From positions 1-64,000 of IMG/VR virus record IMGVR_UViG_3300009408_000003: 64,000 nt of DNA; one strand, 5' to 3'. Shown one piece after another: positions 12,771-47,869 of the stretch (the first letter of the stretch is position 1; each line of letters begins with the position of its first letter). The stretch is from a virus. Under the pieces are notes generated by a model, which saw only the letters and a list, made by a program, of their open reading frames with translations, had not been told where the DNA came from and did not search any database. The translations under genes were made by a program, and so were the position numbers.

Positions 12771-14375
12771 TTAAATAAGAGCTAAATCTTTTACATAAAT
12801 TTTACCATAAAATTCAGGTCTAACCAATTTCTTAGCATATCTCGTCATTACACCGCGTCTAGGAGTAAAATTTGTTGGATCATATACAAGTGGTGTCATA
12901 ATTAATGGTACATATGGTGCATAAACTGCACCACTTTCTAAGAAGTTAGTACCTTTAAATCCTAACAATATTTCATTAGATGTCATATATGGATTTTTAT
13001 ACACTTGGTATCTGTTACTCATAGATCCAATTTGAGTTACACCTGCTGCGAATGTTAATGCATCCTTATCAGCATTTACTGTAAATCCTGGGATTGATTC
13101 AAGGATTGTAGCTACATCAGGAGAACATACTACGAAATTAGCGCCACCCCTTAATGTTAATTGGTGAATCTTATTAGATACTTTATTTATTTTAATACCT
13201 AAAGTTTGATACCATGTATTTTTTTGGTATGCAAATGCTGCGTTAGCACCACTCCATAATCCAGAAGTTGGGTCATATTCTTCTCCAACAGTTGTTGACC
13301 AATAATCAACACTTAAAGCATTAGATTTAAGTAAATCAAGTATTTCTAAGTCAATTTCTAATGAAATATACTCAGATAACATTGATGTTAATTCAGCTTC
13401 TGCATCAATTGAATGATAAGCATTTAAATCTTGAGCCAATTCAGGTGTCCAAACGGCTTTTAATTTACGTGTTTTAGCAACAATTGGTTCAGATTTTAAT
13501 TCTAAATTAACTTCTGGGATACCTATATCAGTTGCTGGTTCTGTTGGTGTTTTATCTTCAAAATCACCTCTGTTAGAAGCAATTGGTTGTTGAGAATATT
13601 TAAATTCATAAGTACCAGCTCCTAATGCTGCTGTTTCTTTTACAAAGAACACAAAATCAGTTGCTGTTTTTTGTGAATGAGCAGGATAGAATGCGTCTGC
13701 TGCAACGAATGCAGAAGATGATACATAGAATGAACGTACCGCATCAACATCAGGTCTTGTGAACGCAGATTGTGCTATAGTTACTTTTTGAATACTTCCA
13801 GCTGCGATAGATGCAGATAATGATGCATCAAAACCTACTTCTGCCCATGATGCAGTTGCAAATGTTAATGAACCAGTTCCAACTCCTGATAATGTTTGAT
13901 CATTTATAGAGTATGCGAATCTACCTTCACCATATAAACCTTTTACGGCTGCGTCAGTTGATCCTAATTTAGTACTGTTACCACCAAATACTGATGTTCC
14001 AGCAAATGCAGGGTTACCTGCTTGGTTTGTGCCATATTTAAAATCAAGATAGAATATTAATCCTGATGGTAAGTTCATTGGTTGAACTGACACGAATTCT
14101 TTAGCTGCGATTTCTCCGAAGATACGTCTTACTAAAGGTAAAGCCACACCACTCCATTCTTCTGAACCTGCAGAAGTACCGGTAGCAGTTGCTTCATCAA
14201 GCAATTGTTTTGCTTGGTTTTCTAACAACACGGCTACTTGTCCTTGTTGTGTTTTTTCTAAACCTTCTAAAAGTCCAGTTTTTTCCCATTTTCCTTTTAA
14301 TCCACGAGTTTCCTCTAGCATTACGGCTTGTGGGTTCTTTCCTTCCATTAATTTAGATAAATCGAAATTTGCCAT
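12771..14375 (-). CDS. 23: Major capsid protein, gp23-like
   Basis: 534 aa, close to T4 gp23 (521 aa). The first 60 residues are a charged helical pro-region ending QLLDEATATG; LLDE followed by A (cut after residue 61) fits the (L/I)xE consensus of the gp21 protease, as in T4, where gp23 is cleaved after residue 65. Next come conserved gp23 segments WSGVALPLVRRIFGEIAAKEFVSVQPM (residues 74-100) and LPSGLIFYLDFKYG. The C-terminus has RRGVMTRYAKKLVRPEFYG, also characteristic. It forms the hexameric lattice of the head. A good AAGGAA ribosome site precedes the ATG. The scaffold gene lies 16 bp upstream in the same operon. Confidence 0.93.
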   Translation of the reverse strand: MANFDLSKLMEGKNPQAVMLEETRGLKGKWEKTGLLEGLEKTQQGQVAVLLENQAKQLLDEATATGTSAGSEEWSGVALPLVRRIFGEIAAKEFVSVQPMNLPSGLIFYLDFKYGTNQAGNPAFAGTSVFGGNSTKLGSTDAAVKGLYGEGRFAYSINDQTLSGVGTGSLTFATASWAEVGFDASLSASIAAGSIQKVTIAQSAFTRPDVDAVRSFYVSSSAFVAADAFYPAHSQKTATDFVFFVKETAALGAGTYEFKYSQQPIASNRGDFEDKTPTEPATDIGIPEVNLELKSEPIVAKTRKLKAVWTPELAQDLNAYHSIDAEAELTSMLSEYISLEIDLEILDLLKSNALSVDYWSTTVGEEYDPTSGLWSGANAAFAYQKNTWYQTLGIKINKVSNKIHQLTLRGGANFVVCSPDVATILESIPGFTVNADKDALTFAAGVTQIGSMSNRYQVYKNPYMTSNEILLGFKGTNFLESGAVYAPYVPLIMTPLVYDPTNFTPRRGVMTRYAKKLVRPEFYGKIYVKDLALI

Positions 14376-17977: not shown

Positions 17978-19669
17978 CTATTTTTTTGTGTCATCTATTG
18001 TAGATATTGTAGAAATGATAGATTTTAATGATACAGATTTAATATTTTCTGTAATTGATTGTATTGTATTTGCTAATTTGTTAGACCCGTTCTTTTTTAA
18101 ATCATTCGTGATTGCATCTATAATATCTTTTCCTGTCCATTGAGCTTTAGCAGATATAGTTGTTGCTATTTTTTCTGTTTTTTCGTCTGGATTTACATAA
18201 TCAGATCCAAATACAGATTTTTTTCTCCAATCGTTATAATTTGGACTAGAAACTCCACCTTTAGGACGTGATAACATTGGATCTTTTTCAAATTCTGGGT
18301 TGTTTTCCAATTTAGCTACCATTTTTCTAGCTTCTTCATCAAAATTAGCATCAACTAATGCAGAATATGCAATTTGTGCCATAGTTTTTTCATATTTTTC
18401 TTTGCCAAGTTTTTTTGGAGTAATACCTGTTTTTTGAATTAAAGAACTAGTAAATTTATTAATTTTTGGATTTCCAACACTAACATTATTATTAGTAGTT
18501 GCTGAACCTTGTTTTTTAAGTTGTGTATTAATATCTTTAATACGTTGATTATTAGCATCCATTTTTTGTTTAACCGCTCTTGAACTTGCAGTTTTTCCTG
18601 CTAATATATCTTGTTGTTTTATTAATTTCTTTTTTAATTTTAATAAATCATCGGTACTTTTAGTATCACTACTAGTATCAGCTTTCTTAGTAGCTACACC
18701 AATTTTTTCAGCAAATTTGTTAGCCATTGGAATAATATCTTTTGCATCTCTATCGATTACAATAACTTTCATATTTTTTGGCTTGCCAGTTTGAATTGCT
18801 CGTGATGTTATAGCAGCCCAACGATGATGACCATCTATTATATATCCATCTCTACTCACATATATAGGTGCGGTTATTCCTGAATTATTAGGATCTTTTT
18901 CTAAAGCTTTTGTCATACTTGCAACCTTAGTACCTATTAGTTCGTTTTGAGTGGCTTTTAGTGAGTCTGATGGTAATTCTGTTTGGTATGTTTTTATTCC
19001 GTTTGTTGCCAGCATTTTTCTAAATAATGGTTCAGTATCAACTTCTCCCGATTTATCCTTTTTCATTTTAGCAGCAATCGTGTTTGCTTCTGGTTTACCT
19101 TTAAATTGAGGCATTTCTGAACGAGGAATACCTAAATTGTTATCACAATATAAGTTAGTACCTGGTATAGTTATTTTACATAAATTATAGTTAGGTGCAG
19201 TTTTTCCTTTTGCACGTGCTTCTTTAGCTAGTTCATCAAGTTTATCAATTTTCATTGATATGATGTGTCGTTCTTTAGGTGAAATATCATCAATATCAGA
19301 TTTAGCATCAAATGTTTTTTTGTTAGCTTTAGGTAATAAATCTGTTATTTTAGTGGATGATACTTCTTTAGGTTTTGGAATATTTGTTATAGATTGACTA
19401 CTTTTGTTATCGGTTGAACTTGCGGATGTTGACTTATCAAATATATTTACTTTTGGTTTAGTACTAGTTGATGTAGTTGCTTTTTTATCTGTCTTTGGTT
19501 TATCTACCACGTAGTTACCGTGCTCATCCTTAATAAATGTTGGCGCATTAGCATCTGTTTCTTTACCCGTTTGTTTGTATCGTCCATGACCAACATGAGT
19601 ATATTTAGAGTCATCTGATTCATTTACTAAAAATGGTCGTAATGTTACTAATCCGCCTATTTTTATCAT
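17978..19669 (-). CDS. ParB-like domain modular head-locus protein
   Basis: 563 aa. Residues 18-57 (DDSKYTHVGHGRYKQTGKET then NAPTF...GNYV) form a small module repeated in the 1913-aa protein. Residues 175-315 contain NLGIPRSEMPQ and then GYIIDGHHRWAAI (DGHHR 279-283), the signature of ParB/sulfiredoxin-fold nucleases, where this segment binds nucleotide. A Lys-rich coiled region (340-390) follows, then a helical C-terminal domain ending SITEN, a candidate gp21 site. Substrate unknown: ParB-like domains bind or hydrolyse CTP or ATP, and some nick DNA. N-terminal FLVNE followed by S looks like a pro-peptide boundary. A virion-internal role is inferred from linkers and location. Confidence 0.6.
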   Translation of the reverse strand: MIKIGGLVTLRPFLVNESDDSKYTHVGHGRYKQTGKETDANAPTFIKDEHGNYVVDKPKTDKKATTSTSTKPKVNIFDKSTSASSTDNKSSQSITNIPKPKEVSSTKITDLLPKANKKTFDAKSDIDDISPKERHIISMKIDKLDELAKEARAKGKTAPNYNLCKITIPGTNLYCDNNLGIPRSEMPQFKGKPEANTIAAKMKKDKSGEVDTEPLFRKMLATNGIKTYQTELPSDSLKATQNELIGTKVASMTKALEKDPNNSGITAPIYVSRDGYIIDGHHRWAAITSRAIQTGKPKNMKVIVIDRDAKDIIPMANKFAEKIGVATKKADTSSDTKSTDDLLKLKKKLIKQQDILAGKTASSRAVKQKMDANNQRIKDINTQLKKQGSATTNNNVSVGNPKINKFTSSLIQKTGITPKKLGKEKYEKTMAQIAYSALVDANFDEEARKMVAKLENNPEFEKDPMLSRPKGGVSSPNYNDWRKKSVFGSDYVNPDEKTEKIATTISAKAQWTGKDIIDAITNDLKKNGSNKLANTIQSITENIKSVSLKSIISTISTIDDTKK

Positions 19670-20688: not shown

Positions 20689-20706
20689 AATTTATTTTAT
20701 TTTTAT
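20648..20706. repeat. 59-bp direct repeat at gene start (copy B)
   Basis: Second copy of the repeat at 20315-20373; it also runs over the stop codon region of the protease gene. Confidence 0.8.
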
Positions 20707-21290
20707 ATTAATTCTTCTATTATTTCTCGCATTAATGATTGTGCCTTACAATATTTACTGCATACTATTGGTGTACCAAAAGTTTTTGATTCATTAACCG
20801 GTCTCATAAATGCACCTTGTGTTGACGGATTAGATACAAAATCCCAACTAATTAATTCAAAATCTTCGCCTACTCGTACTCCGCCTTCATTACGAGCAGT
20901 AACTGATCCCATTCCACGAGATGAAATTCCCAATAAAATACCAGCTCTTAATAATTCTTTTAAAATGTTTCCAGATGGGGTTGGTAATACTTCAATTGTA
21001 CCAACTAAATCATTTCCATCCCAATGAATTTCTCTAACGTTGTGTGATACGTTTTTTAGATTAATTACTGAACTGTCCGGGTGATCTAATTCACCTAAAG
21101 CGCGTCGTTCTTTAATTAATTGACCATATTTTACTGCTTCGCGTTCTAATACGCGTTTTGGATATACTCTTTCATTTTGATTTGGAGCATCTGCACGTTG
21201 TAAAACACCGCGAACAATAGTTCTACCGTGCGAATCTTCATTAAGTTGTCCTTTAAACAAACTTGTTTCTATTAGTAATTGTCTTTCCAT
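20703..21290 (-). CDS. 21: Prohead protease, gp21-like
   Basis: 195 aa (T4 gp21 is 212 aa). Catalytic segments of the U9/herpes-assemblin-like serine protease fold are visible: His70 in GELDHPDSS and Ser123/124 in LGISSRGMGS, followed by the conserved WDFVSNPST. It matures the prohead by cutting scaffold, capsid and internal proteins after (I/L)xE. Its own N-terminus carries LIE (residue 8) and LNE (residue 18), and its C-terminus many Glu, consistent with self-processing. Its place directly next to genes with candidate cleavage linkers supports the processing model for this locus. Confidence 0.92.
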   Translation of the reverse strand: MERQLLIETSLFKGQLNEDSHGRTIVRGVLQRADAPNQNERVYPKRVLEREAVKYGQLIKERRALGELDHPDSSVINLKNVSHNVREIHWDGNDLVGTIEVLPTPSGNILKELLRAGILLGISSRGMGSVTARNEGGVRVGEDFELISWDFVSNPSTQGAFMRPVNESKTFGTPIVCSKYCKAQSLMREIIEELI

Positions 21291-22624: not shown

Positions 22625-24043
22625 TTATTTTTCAATTTCTTTTAAAGTTCTTGCAATATTTACAAGACGTTCCTTTATTTTATAAATATGTCTATTTGTT
22701 CGTTTCCAATAGGAATCTGATTCTAATTCATTAATATTCTTGATTTTATTATACCAACCTAGAAATTTTTCCACTTCTTGTAATTGGTTTTGTAAACCTT
22801 TTAATCCCATAGCAAGTTTTTTATGTGGAGATATGGATTTATCATTTTTTAAATTTAGCCACCTATTCACTTTAGGTGGTGCAACTTCTTTTATATTTTT
22901 TTTACCTAATTTTTTTAAAATTGAATTTACTGAATCGTTACCTTTAATTGTTAATATTCGTTTACCATTATAATATAAATCTTTATCAACTACATGCCAC
23001 ATTCCTTTTTTATAGATATTAAGTTCATGTCGTAATACAGTTTCTAGTGAAGTTGGTAATTTTGATTTTGGCCAAAACACTCCTTCTTTTATATTTTCAA
23101 AAATTACATTAAATCTATTATTTATTGATTCATCAACATTTGTTTCTTGCGGAACTGCATTAAATTTATATTTCATCCATGATACTGAATGACTGTTGTC
23201 AGACCAATCTAATGTCCATCTATTCGGATTCCATGAATTATGTTTATTTAATATTACAACAGCATCACCTAATTTAAATTCAATTTTATGATTATCAAAT
23301 GTAGTTTCAGCTATTGATTCATCTTCAACAGTTGCAAGTTTTGTATAATATTTTGGATCTTCAAATAAATGATCTAATGTAATTTCTTTAGCAAGATTTA
23401 TATCTGTTGTGTGTTCTATTTCAACTTTAATTCCTCGTTGAAATTCTTTTGTTAACTCATTAATATCATTATTATGCTTGCGTGCAATATCTCCAAGATT
23501 TAATCCTTTAGCTAAACCACCAGGAATTAAATCTTGAATTTCTTTTATTGAATGAGCTGTATTAGATTCATTAGCATTTTCTGCAAATACCAATAAATCT
23601 TTAGTACGTTTTATTAATGTTTCTTTTGAAATACCAAGTGAATCAGCAGTTACACTCAATAAAAAGTTATTTTTAAGAAAAGCTTTTACTTGGGGTTTAG
23701 TTGCGATTGCTGATTTAAAGTAAGTATGTGCTATATTATTAAGTTCTTTTGATGTAAGTTTTCCTTTAAAATACGCAGTCATCGCTTCACTTTTAGTATT
23801 ATAAGTTGCTTCACTTATATTATGTACATCATTACCAATAACTTCATAACCGGCTTGGGTAGAAACCGTTTTAGTTTTATCTTTTGATTTTTTAGAATTA
23901 TCTCCGAATACATTCGGAGTATTATACCCAGCAACAGCGCCTGTAGTTGTTTCTTCTAATTCTTCATCTTTCTTAATTTCAAGAAATACTTCATCGATTA
24001 TTTCATCAATATATTTAGACAGTTTTTTTCTTTTTTGCATCAT
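22625..24043 (-). CDS. Modular head-locus protein with DUF5661-like domain
   Basis: 472 aa. N-terminus: coil-forming basic/acidic helix, then TTTGAVAGYNTPNVFG (residues 33-48), a motif common in marine phage head proteins. Residues 173-240 (IPGGLAKGLNLGDIARKHNN... then EIEHT..., ITLDHLFEDPKYYTKLATVE) match DUF5661. Linkers ISE (ending 78) and ESIAE (ending 246) lie at module edges. A SH3-like strand module (residues 250-295) and basic helical tail follow. Overlaps the upstream gene by 29 bp. Function unknown; inferred processed internal protein. Confidence 0.55.
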   Translation of the reverse strand: MMQKRKKLSKYIDEIIDEVFLEIKKDEELEETTTGAVAGYNTPNVFGDNSKKSKDKTKTVSTQAGYEVIGNDVHNISEATYNTKSEAMTAYFKGKLTSKELNNIAHTYFKSAIATKPQVKAFLKNNFLLSVTADSLGISKETLIKRTKDLLVFAENANESNTAHSIKEIQDLIPGGLAKGLNLGDIARKHNNDINELTKEFQRGIKVEIEHTTDINLAKEITLDHLFEDPKYYTKLATVEDESIAETTFDNHKIEFKLGDAVVILNKHNSWNPNRWTLDWSDNSHSVSWMKYKFNAVPQETNVDESINNRFNVIFENIKEGVFWPKSKLPTSLETVLRHELNIYKKGMWHVVDKDLYYNGKRILTIKGNDSVNSILKKLGKKNIKEVAPPKVNRWLNLKNDKSISPHKKLAMGLKGLQNQLQEVEKFLGWYNKIKNINELESDSYWKRTNRHIYKIKERLVNIARTLKEIEK

Positions 24044-25164: not shown

Positions 25165-26892
25165 TTAATTATCATTAAGAATGTTAGATTCGTCTAGCAT
25201 ATTGTGTTGCTCACGTATAAGTTTAAATTTAGCTGATATTCCATTAATATATTTAGTAACTTGTTGTTCAGATTGGCGACCTGTAACTACTGATTGTCGT
25301 TCTTTGTTGCCCAATGGATCTCTACCGTATGGATGTTTATCTTTTCCATAAGTATTACCTTCGCGTGGGCGACCGCCAGTATCTTTTAACTCTTGACTTA
25401 ATTTATTTAAACTATCTTCTACATCAGTAGGTTTAGCCTGTTTGGCAGGGTCTATTCCATTACTTTGAATTGATTCTTGTCTAAATTTATCTTTTAAATC
25501 TTCGATAACTTTAGCACTTTCTAATTTACGTTCGTCTTTACTTAATTTAAAAATATTATCATATACCCAATCTTTTGAAAGCATATTTAAATCTTTAATA
25601 TCAGATGCTAATCTGATTTTTTCAGACCAAAGATTTACTTTTTCTTGTTCGTAAATTGTTGATGGATTAACTAATTGTAAATCAAAATCAGTTATTTCAT
25701 TACGAGGGATTCCATGTGAAAATAGATGAATTACACCAATTTTTGCTAATTCAGAAACAACTGTTCTTTGTATTCTATCGATTGTTCTTGCAAATCGTAC
25801 ATCTTCTGCAGCTAATGTTGCTTTTCCATTTACTTGTTCTTCATATCCTAAATATGCTTTTGGTATTTTTAATGCTGCAAATAATTTTGCTTTTAAATAA
25901 TCAATATCTTCAACTGCACTATATTCTAATCCACTTATATTTTCAATACTTGTACCACTATCTGAACCACGTACTGGTAAATAAAAATCTTCAGTAATAT
26001 TTTGCATATTATATTTTAAATTATAATCACCTGTATTTTTATCCAAAAATGGAACTTTTTTCATTTTATTAATAATACGTTGCATATAATTATCAACCTC
26101 ATTAGGTGTGATATTACCAATATCTATTTTAAATACACGTTTTTCTGGCGCTCTAATGATACGGTTTATTAACATAGCATCTTCCATTAATGATAATTGT
26201 TTCCATAATCGTCTACCATTTTCAATCATAGCTTTTCCGTATGGTAACCAATTGGTATCTGAAAGCAATCTAAAATGTGCCATTTCTGAATTATCATATT
26301 CACCTTTCATTAAAGGGTCATTTTCAACTTTAAATTTTACTGCGTTTGGAAAGTGTGGATCAAACCCTTCTATTCGTTCAGTATTATATACAGATTGAGG
26401 TATCACATTCACAACTCCTTTACCTTCTGCAATTTCTAAAGCAAGAAATAAATCGCCATATTTACAAAGATTTCGTACCCATGGCCATAAATTAAATTCA
26501 ATATTTAAAACATCATAATATAAATTATTTAATAATTCTCGGATTTTTGGATTATCAGAACGAATAACAAGAGAATCGCCTGCCTCATTTTTTAATGTAG
26601 ATTCATCAGCATATATATCCAATGCAGATGCTATTATTGGATCATTATCCATTGCATCAAAATCTCGAAATACTTCTCTACGTACTTGCTGATAGGCCAT
26701 TGATTGTGCTCCACCAGCTTGTTCATAGAATGATTTTTGAATTTTTGTATATCTATCACGCAACCCTGATAAATTTGTTTGTTGTTTATTATCACTATCA
26801 AAAACATTACGATTACCGTTTTTATCAATCGTTACTACTGCATTTGCTCTAAATAGTTTTCTTAATCTTGTAAAAAAGCCTGTATTTGCCAT
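25165..26892 (-). CDS. 20: Portal protein, gp20-like
   Basis: 575 aa (T4 gp20 is 524 aa). Conserved portal segments: RREVFRDFDAMDNDPIIASALDIYADE (residues about 62-88), NLWPWVRNLCKYGDLFLALE, FRLLSDTNWLPYGKAMIENG (residues about 206-226), EDAMLINRIIRAPEKRVFKID and the crown region with YLGYEEQVNGKATLA and RFARTIDRIQ. It forms the dodecameric ring through which DNA is packed and which docks the neck. It lies between the large terminase and the head-core genes, the T4 order. A candidate promoter motif is 35 nt upstream. C-terminal low-complexity tail (GGRPREGNTYGKDKHPYGRD). Confidence 0.93.
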   Translation of the reverse strand: MANTGFFTRLRKLFRANAVVTIDKNGNRNVFDSDNKQQTNLSGLRDRYTKIQKSFYEQAGGAQSMAYQQVRREVFRDFDAMDNDPIIASALDIYADESTLKNEAGDSLVIRSDNPKIRELLNNLYYDVLNIEFNLWPWVRNLCKYGDLFLALEIAEGKGVVNVIPQSVYNTERIEGFDPHFPNAVKFKVENDPLMKGEYDNSEMAHFRLLSDTNWLPYGKAMIENGRRLWKQLSLMEDAMLINRIIRAPEKRVFKIDIGNITPNEVDNYMQRIINKMKKVPFLDKNTGDYNLKYNMQNITEDFYLPVRGSDSGTSIENISGLEYSAVEDIDYLKAKLFAALKIPKAYLGYEEQVNGKATLAAEDVRFARTIDRIQRTVVSELAKIGVIHLFSHGIPRNEITDFDLQLVNPSTIYEQEKVNLWSEKIRLASDIKDLNMLSKDWVYDNIFKLSKDERKLESAKVIEDLKDKFRQESIQSNGIDPAKQAKPTDVEDSLNKLSQELKDTGGRPREGNTYGKDKHPYGRDPLGNKERQSVVTGRQSEQQVTKYINGISAKFKLIREQHNMLDESNILNDN

Positions 26893-26946: not shown

Positions 26947-28581
26947 TTATTTGGATGGTTCAGATGGAGGTTGACCAATTAACCACGTTAAATCTTCGGT
27001 TTCTCCGCCCACATTCCATGTCCACGGATTATCATTCATTTGAGTTCCACTATAAAATCCAGATTCTTGTTCAGTTTGTGATATATTACCTAATGCTTTT
27101 TGTGTTAAATCAATACCAGATTGTTTTAATCGTAATGCTGTATCGCGTACCCATAATCCAATTGACAAGGACATAACTAAATCATCATTGTATCCTCTCA
27201 TTGCTTGCGCTCGATTTCCAACCCAAATAAATACAAATAATTCATCAATTAACCTAGTCGAACGTATCGTGATTGATTTTTCTCTGAAATATAAATCTAG
27301 TTTAGAAATAATAAGTGGTCTTGTTCTGGCTGTTGTTGAAAATCCAGCAACCATACCACGTTCTTCAGCTCTATATTTATTATTCATTTGGCGTTGAGTA
27401 TCCACATATTTTAAATCTTTACTCATATAGAATAAATTACCATAATTTCTATCAATCACTTGTTGAATTACTGCCCAACCAATATTTGCGTTTTCTATTA
27501 CTAGTAGTGCATCATTATATTCGGTTGCTAATGATACTAAAAAGTTTCCATAATCTTTTGTAGATAATTTACCTTTATATTCAGCAACTTGTACAGCTGC
27601 TTCAATATCAAGTACATGACATGCCGAAAAATCGACAGAATCACCACGCGAAACATCAGCAACTACCATGTATGATTTAGCTGGGTCAGAATATTCCCAC
27701 CTCCATAAGTTTCCGTCAAAACCAGTCTTTTCTAGTGGTTCTTGACAATAGGTTTCTTTATAAAATGTTAATAATGATGCATCAATAACAGAATTACCAG
27801 AAGAAATAAAATCACAATCACATTCTTGTGCAGCTGCTTTAGGGCCTAATAAAAGTTCTTGTTCATCTCTCCAGTTTTGGTCTCGTTCTGGATGTAATGA
27901 CCAATGTAATCTAATCGGATTGAATTTATTCCAATCATTGCCTGTCAGATGTGCACCTTGCCATGTTTTATGAAAGAAATTACCTACTCCGTTTGGTGTA
28001 GATAATATAATTGCATCACCACCGGTTGATAATGTAGATTGAGCTGATATCCAAATATCATCTATACCATCGATAAATGCTGCTTCATCAAATACCAATA
28101 ATGATAATGATTCTGACCTACCTGCATCACCGCCAGATGATGTAGCTTTAATTTGTGATCCGTTTGTATAACGTAATGATAATTTATTATCTTCCTCTGC
28201 TTTTTGTTTTAGCCAAGACGGAAGATAATCATTCATTACACGTACTTTAGTTACTAAATTTTTTGCAACTTCTTGTTTTGTTGCAATTACTAATATATTA
28301 AAATCTTCATTAAATAGCATTTTCCATAAAGAATATCCGCCTACAAGTGTCGATATACCAGTTTGTCGAGATTTTAATACAATATTGTATCTGTTTTCAT
28401 TAAATTCCTTTAAAGTCTTTGCTTGATATGGATATAAATTAAATGGTATTTTTCCGCGAGTTGGATGCTGAATCATACAGTATTTTTTCATAAAATATAC
28501 AGGATCTACTGCACATTTCTTATACTCTAACTTTATAATATCCTTTAATGATAATTTTTTTTGGGGTTGATTTACTGCCAT
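26947..28581 (-). CDS. 17: Terminase large subunit, gp17-like
   Basis: 544 aa. ATPase: Walker A SRQTGIST (71-78), Walker B LLVFDEAAF with catalytic Glu166, coupling motif LSTPNG (193-198). Nuclease: MVVADVSRGD (Asp309), LLVIENANIG (Glu363) and a downstream YNDDLVMSL acidic pair, giving the RNase-H-fold metal site. It pumps DNA into the prohead and cuts concatemers. Shorter than T4 gp17 (610 aa) at the C-terminus. It follows the 214-aa membrane protein by one base. No separate gp16-type small subunit is certain; 29211-29867 holds that position. Confidence 0.95.
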   Translation of the reverse strand: MAVNQPQKKLSLKDIIKLEYKKCAVDPVYFMKKYCMIQHPTRGKIPFNLYPYQAKTLKEFNENRYNIVLKSRQTGISTLVGGYSLWKMLFNEDFNILVIATKQEVAKNLVTKVRVMNDYLPSWLKQKAEEDNKLSLRYTNGSQIKATSSGGDAGRSESLSLLVFDEAAFIDGIDDIWISAQSTLSTGGDAIILSTPNGVGNFFHKTWQGAHLTGNDWNKFNPIRLHWSLHPERDQNWRDEQELLLGPKAAAQECDCDFISSGNSVIDASLLTFYKETYCQEPLEKTGFDGNLWRWEYSDPAKSYMVVADVSRGDSVDFSACHVLDIEAAVQVAEYKGKLSTKDYGNFLVSLATEYNDALLVIENANIGWAVIQQVIDRNYGNLFYMSKDLKYVDTQRQMNNKYRAEERGMVAGFSTTARTRPLIISKLDLYFREKSITIRSTRLIDELFVFIWVGNRAQAMRGYNDDLVMSLSIGLWVRDTALRLKQSGIDLTQKALGNISQTEQESGFYSGTQMNDNPWTWNVGGETEDLTWLIGQPPSEPSK

Positions 28582-30020: not shown

Positions 30021-33000
30021 CTATTTTTTATAAAAAATACCTAAAAGTTGATTAAGGGCAGCAAAACCGCCGGTCATTTTAATCGTATGATCATTATATA
30101 CAAAAACGATTCCTTCGCTTGGTACAATTCTATCGATACCACCTATTGAATCTAATCGTTTTAATTCTAATTTTAATTTTTCAATTTTTTTAGGATCTTT
30201 TGATTGAGTAACATCTTTAATCGTTTGAGTTATTCTATCTTTTATTTTTTGTAAAGCTTCATCTGGATTAACGGTAAGTACTGATTTTGTAAATTCTAAA
30301 ACATCTGCACCAATACCTAAAAATATATTTTCGAATTTCATTAAATTTTGTTTTGAAATTTTATCGTGATCATTACTATCAATTTGTTTAGCCCAAGTTA
30401 ATGCTTTATCATCTGATATAGTTTTTGTATTTAATCTAAATGATTTATCTGAAAATGCCCATCGTTTAACTAATCCGACTAACGCAGTTTTATCTAATGT
30501 TGTAGGTGAATTTTTTATAATATAGTTTTCCCACCAAGCTTGATGATACGCAGCTACTCCATCAGTATCTTTTAATCCAAATTCTTTTTCTAAATTATTA
30601 ATTTTACTAATATATGCCGGTTTTTTAGCACTTAAATTTTGATTTTTAGGTAACTTAATAATAGGTGGGCCTTGAATAGTATAAGTATTTTGAACATTTT
30701 GATTTATTTGTTTTATCATACCTGCAAGTAGTTTGGCATCGGTTGTAGATTCTCCAATCGGTTTTCCGTCTAATCCATATTCAAACGTACCATGAAATAT
30801 TAATAATGATTGACCATACGCTATTACATTTACTGATTTTGGAAATATAACTTCAAGCTGCATGAATTTTGCACCATTAGCAAATATTTTATCTTTTTGT
30901 TTTTGAGATAATCCACCAATAGCTTTTGTTAAATCTTGCATTGCGAAATTATATGCATCGGTTAATCCACCTCTACCTTTAAATTTAGCCGCTATTCCTT
31001 TAATATCCATTGCATTTTCTCCGTGGTTCTTTAATTGTCCCGTATTTCTTGCAGCTATCAATTTTCCGTTTTTCCAACTAATTGACAGTGCTACGCCATC
31101 TGTTTTTTCGCGTGTAAATTCTAAATTTCCGTCTAAAGCTTTATTAGCAATATCTTTAAGTTGACCAAACGTTAAATTTACATCAATATCGAATGGGTGG
31201 CTCATGTGTCCATAAGTTCCGCCGCATTGTAATAAAATTTTATCGTTATCTTTATAGTTATTATCTGCTAATACAAACTGTTCAAGATTTTCATCCAAAT
31301 CATCTACTAAATCGTGTATAGATTCATGAACTGTGTTCTTAAATTTAGATACTGAAATTTCATTTTTAGATTCTATATGTAATTCTGGCGTTTTATTTTG
31401 GTGCCACGTAGCGGTTCTTAATATAGTTTTTGCAATGAGTTTATTTGCAGTTTTTATAAATGGTATATTAATATTAGTTTTATCATCTTTTACCATTATT
31501 TCGTTATAGTTAGAAAGAAAATCCTTTAATTCTGATTTATGTTTTGATAATCGTGTAAAGAAATCTATTAATTCTTTTTCTGTTATTTCTATCTTGTTTC
31601 TAGGATCATTAACTCTATCAAAAAAATGATTAGTAAATATAATATCTTCTGGCCTCATTTTATTATCTGCAACTTTATCAATCGTATTTAATTGTTGCCA
31701 TCCCATTTCATGCAAACCACCTTTATCCATTTTATCCGAAAACTTTTTTAATTTATCAAATGAACCAAAACTTTTTAATTTTCGTTGTTTAGCTAATCTC
31801 ATATTATCAAAATTTTTCATTCTCATATGATTTTTTACAATAAAAAATATTTTTGATGGTGTTCCTCCTAAATTAATGATAATATTACGATATTTTTTTA
31901 TTAATGCTGCTGATATTTTTTCATGATCATAATGAGTTATACGACCAGTCTTTGGATTAATTCCGCTAGTTTCATCTTTACCGATATCATGAAACAATCC
32001 CGCTATAGCTAAATTAATATCATCTGGACTTTGTTTTAATGCTCGATTAACTACTGTTATTGTATGTTTTAAAACGTTTCCTTCTGGGTGGTGTATTGTA
32101 TCTTGTCTTATGTGTTTTAGATTTAAAACACGTTTCTGTAAATCAGTAGGTAGTTTACTAAAAAGCTCTTTAAACGTTCTTATTTGCAATTTATTATTTA
32201 TATTAGATTCATTTAAATATCGTTTTTCTTCTTCATTATTAATCCAGTTTCCAATTTCTTTACCTTTTATATTAGCCGGTGCATCTTTCCCAGTTACATT
32301 AATACTAAATTTGACAAATTTAGTATAATCTACTTTATTATGATTACCATAATCTATAATTTGTTTATTTGTTAATGTTGTTCGTTTTTGCTGTTTTTTA
32401 TACTCAACAATATCTTTTGGTTTGAATTTATCTAATGATTGTAAAAATATTACATTAATAATATCTTTTGTAGTATATCCTATTTTATTTAAAACATTTT
32501 CTAATAAATCTTTACTATTTTTCTTTAATAATTGAGCCATTACTACAATATAATCTGAATCATCTATGTATGGTTTATTTATTTTTAAATTTGGAAATGT
32601 TAATGATAAAAATTTTAGTTTTTCCATTAAATCTAAATAGGTTTTAGTTGATTTAGCAGATTCTATTGATTTTATAAATTCCATTCTAATTCTATTTGGA
32701 CTGACATCCTTTAATGTAGGATCTTTCTTAATTGCAAGTAAGGTATCTGTATCCATGCTTCCACCTAATTTAGAAGTAAATCTAACAGCTCGTAATTTAC
32801 GTAAATGATCTTCTGCAAACCTATCTGCTGCATTTCCTACTGTTCTAATTTTTTTATCTTTTAAATCTTTTATACCACCAACTAAATCAACAATTTCTTT
32901 ACGATCAATATCATAAAATAGTGCATTAATTGTTAAATCTCTGCGTTTTACATCCCCCTCAATATCAGTATAATCTATTCCAGTTAGTTTACGATTTTTA

Positions 33001-35762
33001 CCTATATCAGTTCTAAATTGTGTTACTTCATCGCCATCTATTATAACTGTTCCATATTTTATACTGATAGTATCACATTTTAATCCTTCTTTTTTACAAA
33101 TATCAACCATTTCATCTGCTTTTGCATCGGTTGATAAATCGAAATCATGTGGCTTTTTGCCTAAAATAGCATCTCTAACTGCTCCACCTACTACATATAA
33201 TTTTTTACCGTGTTTTTTAAATGCTTTATCAATTTTTTTAACACTTGCTGGTAATGCAAGATTTAATGTATGTTTAGCTTCTGTAATTATGGTATTTTCA
33301 GTTACATTTTCTTTATTATAATTAGTAATAATACGTTTCATTATTTCTGGCGGAATTTTCTCCGTACCAAATCGTTTAAGTACTATTTTTAAAAATGTTT
33401 CTAATGCTTTATCATCAGGTTCGACACCGGCAAATAATGCTGCTTTACCAGCCCCTTTTAATATAGTTTCAGCAACTACGTGTGGAATAAATTCTTGTGC
33501 AACATGACCGGCAAATGCTATAAGACCATGACCAATTCCGCCAGTTGCAACGCCAAAAAGAGCTGTTGTAACTACTTTTATAGCTACACCTTTTAACGCA
33601 GATTTTTCTTCATCTGATAGATTTTTTCCAGACATGAAATGTTTTGCTGCTATTCCTGCATATTTAAATTCTTCTATTTCTTCTTTTGCACCGTGTTTTA
33701 TCTTAATTAAACTACCTTTTAATTTATCTTTAATAGTTTCTGCTATGGTTCGTCTTAATTTAGACTCGCCATTATGCATTTCTTGCACAAAAAAATGTTT
33801 TTCTTCATCAGACCATGTTTCTAATTTTTTACGTACATCTGCAAATTTATCAGTCGTTTTTTGTTTTATTGTTCCAGATACATTTGATTTAGATTTATCT
33901 GAGGTTGATTTATCAAAAATATTTGGTGTTGGACTTGCAGTTTTTTTACCTAATTTTTTTGTACTGGTGGTTACATAGTGACCACTAGCGTTTTTAGTAT
34001 ATACAGGTGCTGATTTATCCTTTTCAGAACCAACTTTTTTATATCTACCGTATCCAATATGTGTGAATTTGTCATCTTCACTTTCAATTATAATATTTGA
34101 GGCTAGTTCGTGTATATGTTTAAATGATACGTCATCCCATTTACGAGAAAGTTTTAATAATGGAATAATATCTAAATTTATTCGTACTGCAACTATCTTA
34201 GCTTTGTTATTTAATGCATATAAGGCCAACACTCTATGATGACCATCTAAAATATATCCGCCTTTAGAAACTACAATTGGTTTAGATAAATTAGATACAG
34301 ATTTAGTCATTAATGTTTCTACTTTATCTCTATTAATATTTTTTTGTGTAAGATTTAATTTTGATATTGGTATTTTTTCAATTTTATATGAATAACCATT
34401 AGCTTTAATATATTTTAAATAGTTTTTTAATTTACTAGATTCAATTTGTGGCATATCTTTACGAGGAATACCTAAATTTTTAAATCCTGTTGTTATATCT
34501 TCGGTTACTATACTTTCAAAAACGTTTGGTGCTTTTTTAAATAATCTGAATGTTGTTATGCTTCTACCATTAATAGTAGGCATGCCGTGTGCATCAACTC
34601 CTATATCTTTAACTACTACTTTTTTATTTTTGAATTTTCCCATTAAAATAGTATCGCCAATATCAACTGGTAATGTTATATTTTCATTCATGTATAATTC
34701 AAATTCGAACTCAATTTCCCTGTCAGCATGGGCTATTTCGCCAGATAACGCTTTTATTTGTGCTTCTGCATTTTTTTCAAGTTGAGTTTTTAATAATTCA
34801 TAACCAGCTAATGTAGCTTTTCGTGTTGCATGTGCATACCATTTTGTATATGCATTACTTGAATAAATATCAATTTGGTTATTCGGTGTCATAGCTCCAA
34901 TTACACCTGCAGGATAGAATGATACAGCTGTTACTGGGCCTTTTGGATAAGTCGGATAATTCTGATAATCTTCAACATCTTTAGTCATTATCATATTAAT
35001 AACCTCGTATCCTATTTTTTTAGCTCGTATTGTTGACACTTTAGAAAATGTATCGAACGTTCCAATAAAACTAGATGGCCCATCATCAGCATCAACTGTA
35101 CCGAGCGAGTTTTCATTTAATAACCATTCTTCAATTGTTTCTTTACTAATTTCAACTATTTCATTTAATTTAGATGTAACTAAATTAAAAATTGTTTTAT
35201 TGTAACTAGGAAAAGCTACCGTTTCAAAGAATTTTTTCTTTTCATCTGTTGTTCCTAATGCTAATCCGTTTCTAACGGTTGTACCACTTAATGTACTAAG
35301 TGTTGGCGCGATAAATACATATCCAGCATCTTTATATGGTTCAGTTGGTTTATTATTATCAAGTTTTCTAAAATATTTTCCGCCTAGCCTTGTTGAATCT
35401 TTTTTACCAACTACAGCAACATATGCAGTAGTATTTTCATCAAATTTACTTAAAATTTCAACTGGTTTATATGGATTTCTAATCTGAATTACATTTGATT
35501 TTGGAATATCAAACATAGTAGTTATTATTTTAAATTTTTCTTTAAAATTAAATGGTGATTTATCTTTAGAAACAACATTAGAAGTACCTATATAGATATT
35601 ATTTTTTCCGAATTTTTTAACTAAATATAAATATATTGCATAATGACCATTATGAAATGGCTGAAATCGGCCTGTAAAAATTACAATTGTTCTTTTTATT
35701 TTATCAGGTGTATCTTCTAAAAGTATTTGTTTTACTAAATAATTACTTAATTTTGTATTCAT
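30021..35762 (-). CDS. 1913-aa multi-enzyme head-locus protein (NMNAT-ParB-CCA/PAP-HD-ligase)
   Basis: One intact ORF. Domains in order: 25-200 NadM/NadR-type adenylyltransferase (GRFQPFHNGH 31-40, SGTTVR 159-164); 240-360 unknown strand-helix module; 425-560 ParB-like (NLGIPRKDMPQ, DGHHR 506-510); 561-600 THIGYGRYKK module; 720-780 Gly/Ala-rich hydrophobic stretch; 850-1080 class II nucleotidyltransferase of CCA-adding/poly(A)-polymerase type (GGAVRD, then DFD 873-875, RRDLTINAL 940-948); 1220-1320 HD phosphohydrolase (HHPEGNVLKH, HD 1258-1259); 1500-1913 ligase/capping-type domain (KTDG 1553-1556, LEV Glu1637, EGIV 1883, IKMTGG Lys1895). Linkers LLE (16), LLNE (217), IIIE (560), IITE (828) and YLNE (1185) fit the gp21 protease consensus. 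I infer a packaged polyprotein cut into NAD- and RNA-repair enzymes; substrates are not known. Confidence 0.8.
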   Translation of the reverse strand: MNTKLSNYLVKQILLEDTPDKIKRTIVIFTGRFQPFHNGHYAIYLYLVKKFGKNNIYIGTSNVVSKDKSPFNFKEKFKIITTMFDIPKSNVIQIRNPYKPVEILSKFDENTTAYVAVVGKKDSTRLGGKYFRKLDNNKPTEPYKDAGYVFIAPTLSTLSGTTVRNGLALGTTDEKKKFFETVAFPSYNKTIFNLVTSKLNEIVEISKETIEEWLLNENSLGTVDADDGPSSFIGTFDTFSKVSTIRAKKIGYEVINMIMTKDVEDYQNYPTYPKGPVTAVSFYPAGVIGAMTPNNQIDIYSSNAYTKWYAHATRKATLAGYELLKTQLEKNAEAQIKALSGEIAHADREIEFEFELYMNENITLPVDIGDTILMGKFKNKKVVVKDIGVDAHGMPTINGRSITTFRLFKKAPNVFESIVTEDITTGFKNLGIPRKDMPQIESSKLKNYLKYIKANGYSYKIEKIPISKLNLTQKNINRDKVETLMTKSVSNLSKPIVVSKGGYILDGHHRVLALYALNNKAKIVAVRINLDIIPLLKLSRKWDDVSFKHIHELASNIIIESEDDKFTHIGYGRYKKVGSEKDKSAPVYTKNASGHYVTTSTKKLGKKTASPTPNIFDKSTSDKSKSNVSGTIKQKTTDKFADVRKKLETWSDEEKHFFVQEMHNGESKLRRTIAETIKDKLKGSLIKIKHGAKEEIEEFKYAGIAAKHFMSGKNLSDEEKSALKGVAIKVVTTALFGVATGGIGHGLIAFAGHVAQEFIPHVVAETILKGAGKAALFAGVEPDDKALETFLKIVLKRFGTEKIPPEIMKRIITNYNKENVTENTIITEAKHTLNLALPASVKKIDKAFKKHGKKLYVVGGAVRDAILGKKPHDFDLSTDAKADEMVDICKKEGLKCDTISIKYGTVIIDGDEVTQFRTDIGKNRKLTGIDYTDIEGDVKRRDLTINALFYDIDRKEIVDLVGGIKDLKDKKIRTVGNAADRFAEDHLRKLRAVRFTSKLGGSMDTDTLLAIKKDPTLKDVSPNRIRMEFIKSIESAKSTKTYLDLMEKLKFLSLTFPNLKINKPYIDDSDYIVVMAQLLKKNSKDLLENVLNKIGYTTKDIINVIFLQSLDKFKPKDIVEYKKQQKRTTLTNKQIIDYGNHNKVDYTKFVKFSINVTGKDAPANIKGKEIGNWINNEEEKRYLNESNINNKLQIRTFKELFSKLPTDLQKRVLNLKHIRQDTIHHPEGNVLKHTITVVNRALKQSPDDINLAIAGLFHDIGKDETSGINPKTGRITHYDHEKISAALIKKYRNIIINLGGTPSKIFFIVKNHMRMKNFDNMRLAKQRKLKSFGSFDKLKKFSDKMDKGGLHEMGWQQLNTIDKVADNKMRPEDIIFTNHFFDRVNDPRNKIEITEKELIDFFTRLSKHKSELKDFLSNYNEIMVKDDKTNINIPFIKTANKLIAKTILRTATWHQNKTPELHIESKNEISVSKFKNTVHESIHDLVDDLDENLEQFVLADNNYKDNDKILLQCGGTYGHMSHPFDIDVNLTFGQLKDIANKALDGNLEFTREKTDGVALSISWKNGKLIAARNTGQLKNHGENAMDIKGIAAKFKGRGGLTDAYNFAMQDLTKAIGGLSQKQKDKIFANGAKFMQLEVIFPKSVNVIAYGQSLLIFHGTFEYGLDGKPIGESTTDAKLLAGMIKQINQNVQNTYTIQGPPIIKLPKNQNLSAKKPAYISKINNLEKEFGLKDTDGVAAYHQAWWENYIIKNSPTTLDKTALVGLVKRWAFSDKSFRLNTKTISDDKALTWAKQIDSNDHDKISKQNLMKFENIFLGIGADVLEFTKSVLTVNPDEALQKIKDRITQTIKDVTQSKDPKKIEKLKLELKRLDSIGGIDRIVPSEGIVFVYNDHTIKMTGGFAALNQLLGIFYKK

Positions 35763-35866: not shown

Positions 35867-37483
35867 TTATCTCATTCCAGGAAGTTGCGGCTGTAATACT
35901 GGTGTTTTTTCTTGTTTAGTAGCAATAACACATGATGTCATTAATAGTAATCCGGCAACAGATGCACTGTGTGTTAATGCAAGTCGTGTTACTTTTGTAG
36001 GATCTATAATTCCAGCTTTTAGCATATTTACATATTCATTTGTTCTTACATTATATCCATAATTTTTTTTAGATGCTTCTATTTTACTAAGAATAACATC
36101 TGGCGATATTCCTGCGTTTTCAATTATTATTCTAAAAGGGGCCTCAATTGCAGTTTGTACAATTTTTACTCCTAGTTGTTCATCTTCGGTTAATGTTTGA
36201 TTTATTTTTAGATTTTTCGATGCGTTTATTAATGCTAAACCACCGCCGATTACAATCCCTTCTTCTACTGCAGCACGTGTTGCATGCAACGCATCATCAA
36301 CTCTATCTTTTTTCTCCTTCATTTCAGTTTCAGTAGATGCTCCAATATAAATTATCGCAACACCACCACTTATTTTAGCTAAACGTTCTTGAAGTTTTTC
36401 TTTATCATATTCTGATGTTGAATTTTCTATTTGTTGTTTTATAACACTTATACGAGATTTAATATCAGTTGATTTACCACCTCCGTTAATAAATGTAGTT
36501 GTATCTTTATCAATATTTATTTTTTCGCAAGTACCCAAGTGTGAAAGTGTTGCATCTTCTAATTTTAATCCAACTTCATCAGATATTACTGTTCCGCCAG
36601 TTAAAACGGCTGTATCTTCTAATATTTCTTTTCTTCTATTTCCAAATGCTGGTGCCTTTATTGCTGCTATTTTTAATGAACCTCTTAATTTGTTTACTAC
36701 GAGTGTTCCAAGTGCTTCACCATCGATATCACTTGCAATTATTAATAATGGTCGACCACTATTAGCAACAGGTTCTAGTAATGGTAATAAATCGTTTATT
36801 GTAGATATTTTTTTATCATACAATAAAATATAAGGATTTTCTAATTCGCATACTAGCGTTTCTTGATTTGTTATAAAATATGGTGAAAGGTAACCTTTAT
36901 CATATTGCATGCCTTCTACCGTTTTTACTTCAATTTCAGTACCTTTAGCTTCTTCTACAGTAATTACTCCGTTTTTACCAACTTTTTCCATAGCATCTCC
37001 AATCATTAATCCAATAGTTTCATCATTATTTGCTGAAATTGTTGCTATTTGTACAATTTCTTCTGGTGATGATACTAATTTTGAATTTTTTCTTAGGTTA
37101 TCTACTATATGATTAACCGCTATATCAATACCACGTTTTAATTCAGTTGGATTTGCGCCTGATGTAACTAGTTTTAATCCTGAATTAAATATTGATTGAG
37201 TTAATACAGTAGCGGTAGTAGTACCATCACCTGCTAAATCATTCGTTTTTGAAGCAACGTCTTTTACAAGCTGAGCTCCCATATTTTCAATTGGATCATC
37301 AAGTTCTACACTTTTTGCAACAGTAACACCATCCTTTGTAATATGAGGAGAAGAAAGTTTTTTACTTAAAACTACATTTCTACCTTTTGGCCCTAATGTA
37401 CAGCTTACTGCAGCTGATAATTTATCAACTCCTTGTTTAAGTTTCATTCTTGATTCGTTACCATGTATTATAATTTTTGTCAT
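35867..37483 (-). CDS. groL: Full-length GroEL chaperonin
   Basis: 538 aa (bacterial GroEL about 545). Group I signatures: [10 protein letters not shown] near residue 30, [21 protein letters not shown] (the nucleotide-site Asp), and [22 protein letters not shown] with the catalytic Asp equivalent to E. coli Asp398. The C-terminus ends PQLPGMR and lacks the GGM repeats of bacterial forms. It should form a ring that folds phage proteins, for example capsid or the giant structural proteins. T4 instead encodes only a co-chaperonin (gp31); no GroES is seen in this window, so it may use the host's. It is flanked by a long leader and a terminator, so it is probably a single-gene unit. Confidence 0.95.
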
Positions 37484-38518: not shown

Positions 38519-39049
38519 TTAATATCCTAACGCTACCCAATAACAATCGTATGGACTATCAAGTATTACTGTTGCTCCCGTTGTGCTAATTGAAGAAACG
38601 TAATTAAATCCATTTGCACCAGAGCTATTTCTTATTGTGTTAACAGTTACAGCTTTACACTCAATCATAAATGATGTTGGAAATGTAATATTTGTAGTTG
38701 CACTAGTTCCATTAGCTCTTCCCCATTGCATCATAAATCCATTAGGTAATCTTTGATATCCTGTTGTATTATATGTTCCACTATTTCCAAATGTTAAATC
38801 TGAACCGTCTAATGTTAATCCTCCTGCTATGTTTACTAAATTATTTCCTATATTAGCAGTAGAAGTATCTACAGTTACATATCTACTAGTATCACTATTA
38901 ACTAATACACCAGCACCATTAAGAGTTATACCAGGATTAGCAGTTCTAACTGAAATAGTACTTGTATTTGCAACTGTTGTAATATATGCAGCAGGATTAA
39001 GTGTTGGTGAAGATCCGTAATATCTAAATATATGATGCTGTGCGTATTT
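38519..39049 (-). pseudogene. Tail-fibre tip frame without a start codon
   Basis: An open frame from 39049 (just after a stop) to 38519 translates as a fibre tip: FRYYGSSPTLNPAAYITTVA, SVRTANPGITLNG, VNSDTSRYVTVDTS, GNSGTYNTTGYQRLPNGF and finally MMQWGRANGTSATTN to the end DCYWVALGY. The LPNGFMMQWG phrase is common at the C-terminus of phage fibres. The first ATG is at 38734, inside that phrase, so a natural start is missing. The frame overlaps the 3' end of the 1948-aa gene (stop 39024-39026) and is +1 relative to it. A shift near 39024-39030 would append the tip (EIRTASY... then FRYYGSS). Indel, programmed shift or an unusual start are all possible. Confidence 0.6.
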
Positions 39050-46958: not shown

Positions 46959-47869
46959 TCACCATTTAATGATTTAACTACTCCTGCGGTTTCTTTCCAA
47001 AAATTTACATTTACTTTAAGATTAGTTTTTTTACGAGTCCACTTTGCGGTACGTTCAATAAAATATTTAGTTTCATCTATTTCAAATTCAAATTTACAAT
47101 AAAAACTGTCTTTTCTATTATTTAATATATGTTTAGATGAATTACTTCTTGAAGTTTTATCAAATATACAAAATAATAATGCAGAAAATAATGATGATTT
47201 TCCTGCAGTATTTGGAGCAAAAACACCTATCATGCCTCTTGCTTTATCAAAATTTATTATATTGTGTTCACCATATGAAAACATATTATCAAACTCAAAT
47301 TTTATTGGAGTCCAAATTATATTTTCTACTCGGTTAGTATCATTTATTTGTGAATTAATATTTGAATTTATATCAGTTATATAATTTAAATCTGATTCAT
47401 CTAGCAGATATTGTCTTTTTAAATAGTCTCGTATTAATTGATTCTGAAAAGTTACGTCATGTACTTCACCAACAATATTTTTATTTAAGTTTGAGTTTGT
47501 TTTAAGATTACCAATCGTATCAGTACGTGTTACCGTAACTTCTGCAACTTTAAACAGTTTTTTTAATTCTGTGATTCGAAGTTTCATATCTGCAGCTTCT
47601 GTTTTGGTAAATCGCAATCTTAAATGAGGATATTTCGGTAATTTTGTGTTAACTTCATCATACACCCAATCTGGTATTATTCCGTTTATAACATCTATTG
47701 TTAAATATCCATAATCATTGCGAATATTATGTTCGGTAAAGTTTCTTTTTTTGACATCCCATAATAAATATCCATGCTTTTCTAAAAGTTCGCCATGATT
47801 CTGTTGTACCAAACTGCCACAATATGCAACTGCAGGCCGTATTCGTTTAATTTTTATTTTTTTACCCAT
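46931..47869 (-). CDS. 47-46: gp47 C-terminus fused to gp46 N-terminus
   Basis: 312 aa. Residues 8-60 (RIRPAVAYCGSLVQQNHGEL then GYLLWDV) are the capping-side end of an Mre11/SbcD-type nuclease (gp47). Residues about 183-312 start a Rad50/SbcC-type ATPase (gp46) with FDNMFSYGEHNIINF and Walker A APNTAGKSS (219-226). So two proteins that are separate in T4 are fused here. The frame is the same as the gp47 N-terminal part upstream, separated by one TAA and five codons. It ends with a stop shortly after the frame change. Whether it is translated alone from the ATG at 47869 is unclear. Confidence 0.7.
   Translation of the reverse strand: MGKKIKIKRIRPAVAYCGSLVQQNHGELLEKHGYLLWDVKKRNFTEHNIRNDYGYLTIDVINGIIPDWVYDEVNTKLPKYPHLRLRFTKTEAADMKLRITELKKLFKVAEVTVTRTDTIGNLKTNSNLNKNIVGEVHDVTFQNQLIRDYLKRQYLLDESDLNYITDINSNINSQINDTNRVENIIWTPIKFEFDNMFSYGEHNIINFDKARGMIGVFAPNTAGKSSLFSALLFCIFDKTSRSNSSKHILNNRKDSFYCKFEFEIDETKYFIERTAKWTRKKTNLKVNVNFWKETAGVVKSLNGEQLLINCIN

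Follow-up and report, generated by a model that had tools for sequence, protein, structure and literature searches.

A 1913-residue multi-domain protein encoded beside the terminase gene of a T4-type phage, probably a head-packaged polyprotein of NAD- and RNA-repair-type modules

The window analysed here comprises the first 64,000 nucleotides of the IMG/VR virus record IMGVR_UViG_3300009408_000003, a possibly incomplete record of 120,327 bases from a T4-type phage. On the minus strand, from position 30,021 to 35,762, it contains an open reading frame (ORF) which begins with ATG, has no internal stops upon translation and encodes a protein of 1913 amino acids (aa), as was already noted in a preliminary description made from the sequence alone. 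The protein consists of a leader followed by modules, several with the motifs of enzymes that act on nicotinamide mononucleotide (NMN) or on RNA ends, and it is probably a cargo protein of the phage head. From N- to C-terminus the parts are (window positions, strand, residues, basis):

35715..35762, minus: aa 1-16, leader MNTKLSNYLVKQILLE, ending in L-L-E; predicted head-targeting propeptide
35112..35714, minus: aa 17-217, NMN-adenylyltransferase-like domain of the HIGH superfamily (PF01467, phrog_395, NadM 1f9a profile)
34683..35111, minus: aa 218-360, module with a DDGP..F motif (likeness by eye to a (D)DGPP(T)F stretch found elsewhere)
34500..34682, minus: aa 361-421, beta module of about 55 aa, GDTxLMGKFKNKK (alignment; stand-alone ORFs)
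34083..34499, minus: aa 422-560, ParB-like module, DGHHR (phrog_620, phrog_2859)
33279..34082, minus: aa 561-828, GRYKKVG module and hydrophobic helical module (shared stretches)
32208..33278, minus: aa 829-1185, class II CCA-adding/poly(A) polymerase-type nucleotidyltransferase (PF01743, PF12627, phrog_2244)
31707..32207, minus: aa 1186-1352, HD phosphohydrolase module (PF01966; HDIG)
31290..31706, minus: aa 1353-1491, RelE/ParE/RegB-like predicted RNase module (AlphaFold, fold matches)
30024..31289, minus: aa 1492-1913, RNA-ligase-like covalent nucleotidyltransferase (alignments, AlphaFold, fold matches)

The adenylyltransferase, ParB-like, CCA-type and HD domains had been named in the preliminary description, and Pfam and PHROG matches bear them out. 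PF01467 matches aa 28-107 (E 5.9e-6) and phrog_395 ("cytidyltransferase") aa 21-174, and a profile of the domain finds archaeal NadM (1f9a) with an E-value of 1.5e-7. The domain has the HIGH fold and the GRFQPxHxGH and SGTxxR motifs of NadM/NadR-type enzymes, GRFQP, H40 and SGTxxR being invariant in 30 diverse sequences; in the branch of two relatives, L026 and L081, H37 and G39 are not conserved. It stays below the NCBIfam equivalog cut-offs (28.6 versus 127 bits and 22.7 versus 181 bits). The ParB-like match at aa 458-521 (phrog_620, 2.3e-4) lies within one to phrog_2859 (7.1e-27), Pfam ParBc_2 being below its cut-off. The CCA-type module, with matches to PF01743 (aa 855-973, E 5.8e-26), PF12627 (aa 1003-1059, 1e-5) and phrog_2244 (4.9e-55), carries the GG-VRD, DxD, RRDxxxNA and EDxxR motifs and the PolyA_pol head domain; among solved structures it comes closest to poly(A) polymerases and CCA-adding enzymes (E 1e-30), and it scores almost equally on the CCA and the PcnB model (160.7 versus 159 bits). 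PF01966 matches aa 1231-1317 of the HD module (E 4.5e-7; HDIG 7.7e-7). In the Pfam and PHROG scans no peptidase domain was found in the 1913-aa protein.

The C-terminal domain is, judged from its motifs and predicted structure, likely RNA-ligase-like and stands outside the known RNA ligase families. The ligase-type motifs pointed out in the preliminary description (K1553 in EKTDG, E1637, EGIVF, K1895) hold up: E1552, K1553, D1555, G1556, R1572, E1637, E1883, G1884 and K1895 are invariant or nearly so in 42 diverse relatives. AlphaFold models the fold with confidence (predicted local distance difference test score, pLDDT, 88; predicted template modelling score, pTM, 0.84); strands coincide with motifs I, III, IV and V, and a helical stretch of some 200 residues is inserted ahead of motif IV. 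The best 29 fold matches in the PDB are RNA ligases with few exceptions, which are DNA ligases, and include fungal tRNA ligase, T4 Rnl1, T4 Rnl2 and the Naegleria RNA ligase. The predicted nucleotidyltransferase fold and motifs I, III and IV are those of Rnl1 and Rnl2. For the C-terminal 400 or so residues there is no match in Pfam, in PHROG or in any known RNA ligase family, a profile of the domain gives only chance matches against PDB sequences, and the classical RNA_ligase family was not found in this phage record.

The domain list of the preliminary description, correct for the domains it named, missed the module at aa 1353-1470, a putative RelE/RegB-like RNase. It is present in about half of the full-length relatives with an invariant HFFxR...D.RN signature, and the top PDB matches of its AlphaFold model (pLDDT 79) are mostly ParE, YafQ and RelE. 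Pfam REGB_T4 gives a weak match on the window protein (E 0.09), and a RegB-type profile found nothing significant among PDB sequences.

The gene lies in the head region of the genome, together with the following genes:

26947..28581, minus: large terminase, downstream of the polyprotein gene on the same strand (PHROG terminase matches)
25165..26892, minus: portal protein (phrog_213, 1e-56)
22625..24043, minus: head-region ORF with a DUF5661 module (PF18905, 3e-14; stretch shared with polyproteins, E 1e-27)
20703..21290, minus: gp21-type prohead serine protease (PF03420, 8.2e-29)
17978..19669, minus: second probable cargo protein with modules common to the polyprotein (LVNE-SDDSKYTHVG boundary; phrog_2859, 5.7e-19)
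12771..14375, minus: gp23-type major capsid protein (PF07068, 1.4e-78)

The linkage recurs widely. Of 153 loci in which the downstream sequence extends over 5 kb or more, a terminase gene follows on the same strand in 151, a portal gene in 141 and a protease gene in 99. The DUF5661 module of the neighbouring ORF is carried by 15 of 36 related polyproteins.

The search for homologues with the same domain order that had been proposed in the preliminary description turned up relatives in abundance, with shuffled modules. One scan of IMG/VR yielded 498 relatives, and further scans added more, so that shuffled versions are known from hundreds of uncultured aquatic phages; a few come from contigs that had been assigned to bacterial or archaeal genome bins. 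The adenylyltransferase and the ligase occur together in 60 of the 61 loci with enough upstream sequence, and between and around this pair the other modules are gained, lost and reordered (for example, adenylyltransferase-beta module-ligase, beta module-adenylyltransferase-ligase, or adenylyltransferase-RegB-like module-beta module-ligase), the polyproteins varying in length from about 640 to 2460 aa. Among the 40 frames that appear to be ligase only there are short N-terminal fragments of split ligases, so that their number does not count stand-alone ligases. The CCA/HD cassette occurs in this phage and in few relatives (L003, L026, L045), and the hydrophobic helical module is found in about ten. 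Cassettes of other relatives include a GNAT acetyltransferase, a P-loop kinase (AAA_33/Zeta), a peptidase-like PF05618 domain (zinc or aspartic), DUF5661, in some cases Zn_protease or SprT-like modules, and many that are nameless. The P-loop kinase module is also seen as a separate ORF (L187:4982-5794, L186:9953-10717) and as the first module in L132:878-4033; it is possible that it is a polynucleotide kinase, for which a comparison with the PDB gave no match, AAA_33/Zeta_toxin being the only assignment.

The modules are joined at a recurrent motif, a hydrophobic residue followed by any residue and Glu. T4 gp21 cuts after L/I-x-E, and the internal proteins of T4 carry targeting propeptides of 10-19 aa that are cut at L/I-x-E (PMC9026906); the 16-aa leader MNTKLSNYLVKQILLE is of this kind. 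Leaders like it head whichever module comes first in the relatives, be it the adenylyltransferase, the beta module or the ligase. The positions at which homology breaks off were determined in 74 non-redundant proteins and set against random positions within the same proteins. Of the 223 non-redundant breakpoints, 65% have an [ILVMF]xE no more than 10 aa away, as against 31% of random positions. With redundant contexts included, and all 20 residues compared, the values were 73% and 30%, and with the starts of the core domains excluded 60% and 31% (n = 137). Of ten residues compared in the non-redundant set only Glu is enriched, Asp, Lys, Gln and Asn being not, and its enrichment peaks with a hydrophobic residue at position -2. 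Where the start of the ligase was compared in 72 non-redundant contexts, 89% have [hydrophobic]xE-GG despite differing upstream sequence, and an invariant Glu precedes the beta module in 23 aligned copies. In the window protein homology starts cluster at aa 14, 358, 826, 1183 and 1349, which is 2-3 residues before Glu16, Glu360, Glu828, Glu1185 and Glu1352. The (I/L)xE linkers of the preliminary description are thus confirmed above chance at Glu16, Glu828 and Glu1185; Glu360 and Glu1352, which it had omitted, are likely to be sites as well, and the one expected ahead of the ligase is missing in this phage.

Modules of the polyproteins are also encoded on their own, in ORFs that begin with a leader of 6-20 aa ending in hydrophobic-x-Glu, for example MIKLMDLLNE-GVNDPG, MIKLLDILNE-YSHNN and MIRLQKILNEVLLKE-GGAYGHM (MIRLQKILNE..LLKE-GGAYGHM). 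The beta module is found in this form (L220:6527-6835, L187:13825-14112), and a (D)DGPP(T)F-like stretch, compared by eye, follows the leader in separate ORFs such as L187:12387-13139. In L187 several modules are neighbouring separate genes upstream of the terminase gene. In the window itself, the ORF at 17978-19669 starts with MIKIGGLVTLRPFLVNE-SDDSKYTHVG, to which IIIE-SEDDKFTHIG around Glu560 of the polyprotein corresponds; at this common x-Glu boundary both proteins have the GRYKKVG stretch (46%, E 5.7e-13).

At 26 loci the ligase is divided between two different ORFs, with one constant split point just past the strand of the catalytic lysine, in a loop between two strands predicted by AlphaFold. 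[Hydrophobic]xE-GG precedes the piece with the catalytic lysine, whereas the other piece mostly comes after ITE right behind the adenylyltransferase (among 14 sequences listed); the former is encoded downstream of the remainder, as in L187 (L187:8937-10679 with L187:12387-13139). Since such a constant split is otherwise hard to explain, the pieces may be released and then reassemble. In another relative (L061:1903-7065, residues ~1230-1366) an intein-like insertion is located exactly between the catalytic Lys and the Thr-Asp-Gly of ligase motif I; the Pfam model Intein_splicing matches one protein among the relatives.

Part of what is described here has counterparts in the literature, and the statement in the preliminary description that no system of this composition was known to its author is therefore only partly right. 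The polyvalent proteins of phages and conjugative elements (Iyer et al. 2017, PMC5512222) are likewise long, with 2-15 domains of unrelated activities, are coded beside virion genes and are predicted to be injected; ParB-like and GNAT domains are common to both, as are RelE-superfamily (BECR) RNase domains, which in the present family are putative. Like them, the window ORF combines several unrelated domains and is located among late virion genes of a phage with portal and terminase. They differ in that embedded zincin peptidases were proposed as the cutters, whereas here a separate gp21-type protease and x-Glu sites are implied, and in that the main text of that paper does not contain the word adenylyltransferase and has RNA ligases only as separate phage proteins, whereas the core here is an adenylyltransferase-ligase pair. 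With T4 IPI-III and Alt (PMC9026906) the family has in common the short N-terminal L/I-x-E propeptide, the gp21-type protease and a cargo that would be ejected with the DNA; the T4 internal proteins are, however, separate gene products, whereas here the modules are concatenated and the cuts would part enzymes as well as remove a propeptide. Most likely, the cargo polyprotein is a variant of the polyvalent and T4 internal proteins, new being the gp21-type processing and the NAD/RNA-repair core.

Cyanophage proteins related to the first domain are known from virions. The cytidyltransferase T4-GC190 was detected in the virion of cyanophage S-SM1 (PMC3037559), and a cytidylyltransferase in that of S-CREM2, which the authors name an NMNAT homologue and propose to be delivered to the host (PMC10665884). 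T4-GC190 of S-PM2 is related to the N-terminal domain of the polyprotein (hhalign probability 92%, E 6e-7). Directly upstream of it lies T4-GC71, a hypothetical protein present in 468 phage records, which has KWDG and EG-V..K motifs in ligase order. A direct hhalign comparison of the window ligase with the cyanophage GC71/GC190 proteins was not significant; the ligase has a fold match to a 591-aa "cytidyltransferase-like" entry of S-PM2 (E 2.8e-5), whose length would fit GC71 plus GC190, and it is on the motif order and this match that a link between the ligase and GC71 is based. GC71 and GC190 are usually two short genes and have none of the shuffled cassettes, unlike the present family. Copies of T4-GC71 were also seen at L251:3371-4549, L252:1592-2824 and L255:295-1221 (cyanophage/pelagiphage), two cyanophage copies being just before T4-GC190. 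In the Microcystis phage Mel-JY01 a protein of 639 aa (WWT39297.1) has the adenylyltransferase and the same ligase (39.7% identity), and only these two domains, a few genes before the terminase and the prohead protease. The repair enzymes of T4 (Pnkp/Rnl1, Rnl1, Rnl2) resemble the ligase in fold, in motifs I, III and IV and in the idea of RNA-end repair; unlike Rnl1 and Rnl2, the window ligase is outside their families and has the helical insertion, a K-x-T motif V and a virion-type gene context. Phage NAD+ reconstitution (NARP1, PMC12774641) similarly counters NAD depletion by NAD resynthesis; it uses Adps and Namat, whereas here there is an NMNAT-like enzyme only, predicted to be delivered by the virion.

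Taken together, these data make it probable that the protein is a cargo polyprotein which the T4-type phage packages into its head and which the gp21-type protease cuts into enzyme modules. The preliminary description had proposed a polyprotein packaged with head proteins and cut by a gp21-like protease; in favour of a polyprotein encoded among head genes and bearing gp21-type sites are now the boundary test with its controls, the separate ORFs with leaders, the gp21-type protease, the terminase linkage and the detection of cyanophage relatives in virions. In this scheme the leader would target the polyprotein to the prohead core; the protease would cut after hydrophobic-x-Glu, releasing the NMN-adenylyltransferase-like, beta, ParB-like, CCA-adding, HD, RelE/RegB-like RNase and RNA-ligase-like modules; and these would be ejected with the DNA and act ahead of phage gene expression. 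The adenylyltransferase-ligase pair would then serve NAD/nucleotide chemistry and RNA-end repair, and the CCA-type and HD modules the upkeep of tRNA ends. Packaging, cleavage, ejection, each activity and a benefit against host NADases or tRNA-cutting nucleases are predicted from what was computed, namely domains, conserved catalytic residues, module shuffling, hydrophobic-x-Glu boundaries, leaders and linkage to terminase, portal and protease.

It should be noted, however, that several points weigh against this interpretation. The phage is known from its sequence alone. Breakpoints from related proteins share ancestry, so that binomial p-values overstate certainty, and [ILVMF]xE is near 31% of random positions, too. 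The motif is absent at the homology starts at aa 273, 642 and 1303 of the window protein, and directly before the ligase Glu is replaced by Cys in this phage (LLQC-GG, in relatives LLxE-GG), because of which its ligase may not be freed from extra residues or from the module upstream. The single fold E-values are weak for the ligase-like domain (best 0.0098) and weaker for the RelE-type matches (from 0.06); motif V of the former is K1895-x-T1897 rather than K-x-K, both K and T being conserved, and hhalign of the RelE/RegB-like module with T4 RegB gives a probability of 0.3% (E 0.21), with His and Arg aligned. The adenylyltransferase alone needs NMN, and a NAMPT gene was not found in the 120-kb record, which may be incomplete; one related phage has such a gene. 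Finally, two large, near-complete relatives with 25-28 tRNA genes have neither a CCA module nor any PF01743 gene.

That the modules would counter defences which deplete NAD or cut tRNA is a plausible prediction, the same genome containing 31 tRNA genes (ARAGORN) and genes for RtcB, NADAR and TROVE. These RtcB, NADAR, TROVE and tRNA genes support a theme of RNA maintenance; a peptide deformylase gene is also present in the record. The tRNA genes form a dense array at 93.5-105.2 kb of the record that covers most amino acids. A PADLOC defence scan gave marginal matches only, which were taken as chance, and the PHROG label "NAD synthetase" for the window ORF 50993-51430 was rejected as support for NAD metabolism, since Pfam identifies a SegE-type GIY-YIG endonuclease. 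That at least 26 of the 31 tRNA genes do not encode CCA, and that the CCA module is an optional cassette, would also fit an alternative in which the CCA-type and HD modules mature the phage's own tRNAs and the package helps translation rather than counter-defence. We consider this rather unlikely: the relatives with 25-28 tRNA genes manage without a PF01743 gene, which indicates that a host enzyme can suffice and for which tRNA gene number alone was rejected as the reason for the CCA module, and the adenylyltransferase-ligase pair and the virion-type leader are left unexplained.

In large phages, related enzymes are often fused. The protein could thus be an ordinary multifunctional enzyme, made in the infected cell for phage nucleotide and tRNA metabolism and never cut, the x-Glu motifs being marks of flexible linkers, which tend to be Glu-rich. 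This is improbable in view of the preference for the -2 spacing and the lack of enrichment for Asp, Lys, Gln and Asn, of the recurrence of modules as separate ORFs with short x-Glu leaders, of the position beside the terminase, portal and protease genes at almost every locus, and of the cyanophage relatives of the first domain in virions.

A bolder version of the cargo polyprotein appears decidedly improbable: the adenylyltransferase and the ligase would form a coupled machine in which the ligase, a new class of RNA ligase, takes AMP from NAD+ and releases NMN, from which its partner remakes NAD+ with ATP, both delivered by gp21-cut cargo in the virion and, in one lineage, with a ligase reassembled from two pieces. 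That the protein is mainly a core or scaffold protein of the prohead, its enzyme folds kept for packing and catalysis being vestigial, would agree with the location in the head region and with the cutting of T4 core proteins by gp21 at many sites (PMC9026906), and is highly improbable given that diverse relatives conserve the catalytic residues of both core enzymes with little or no change, that the length range is unlike that of a size-determining scaffold and that an intein-like insertion sits in a ligase active site.

If the cargo polyprotein is real, T4-type phages can build a processed enzyme polyprotein for delivery at infection, and their prohead protease can also serve as a polyprotein protease. 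It could then be tested whether enzymes for NAD and RNA repair arrive with the phage instead of awaiting early expression. A likely ligase fold is assigned to a protein family that has no Pfam or PHROG entry, and a possible role is suggested for the cyanophage T4-GC71/T4-GC190 pair, the second member of which is known from virions. And because the cassettes swap cleanly at x-Glu sites, the family may be read as a catalogue of candidate early-acting proteins, most of them nameless.

Some other observations concern the gene and its surroundings. The T4 late promoter TATAAATA is not enriched across the window, and the copy preceding the polyprotein gene is on the opposite strand. In a contig that is near-identical to the window (L002:9995-15525) the gene lacks about 200 bases and is interrupted, leaving two frames, which is either a real variant or an assembly error. 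Two very long ORFs, at window positions 39024-44870 (1948 aa, without Pfam match) and 55861-60783 (1640 aa), have no PHROG match. A gp46/SbcC-like subunit extends over two ORFs (45432-46712 and 46931-47869) that match different parts of one family, so that, from the sequence, the gene appears to be split or interrupted. Directly upstream of the polyprotein gene, at 35867-37483, lies a GroEL gene (phrog_5725, 3e-175), an arrangement that is rare elsewhere (2 of 153 loci).

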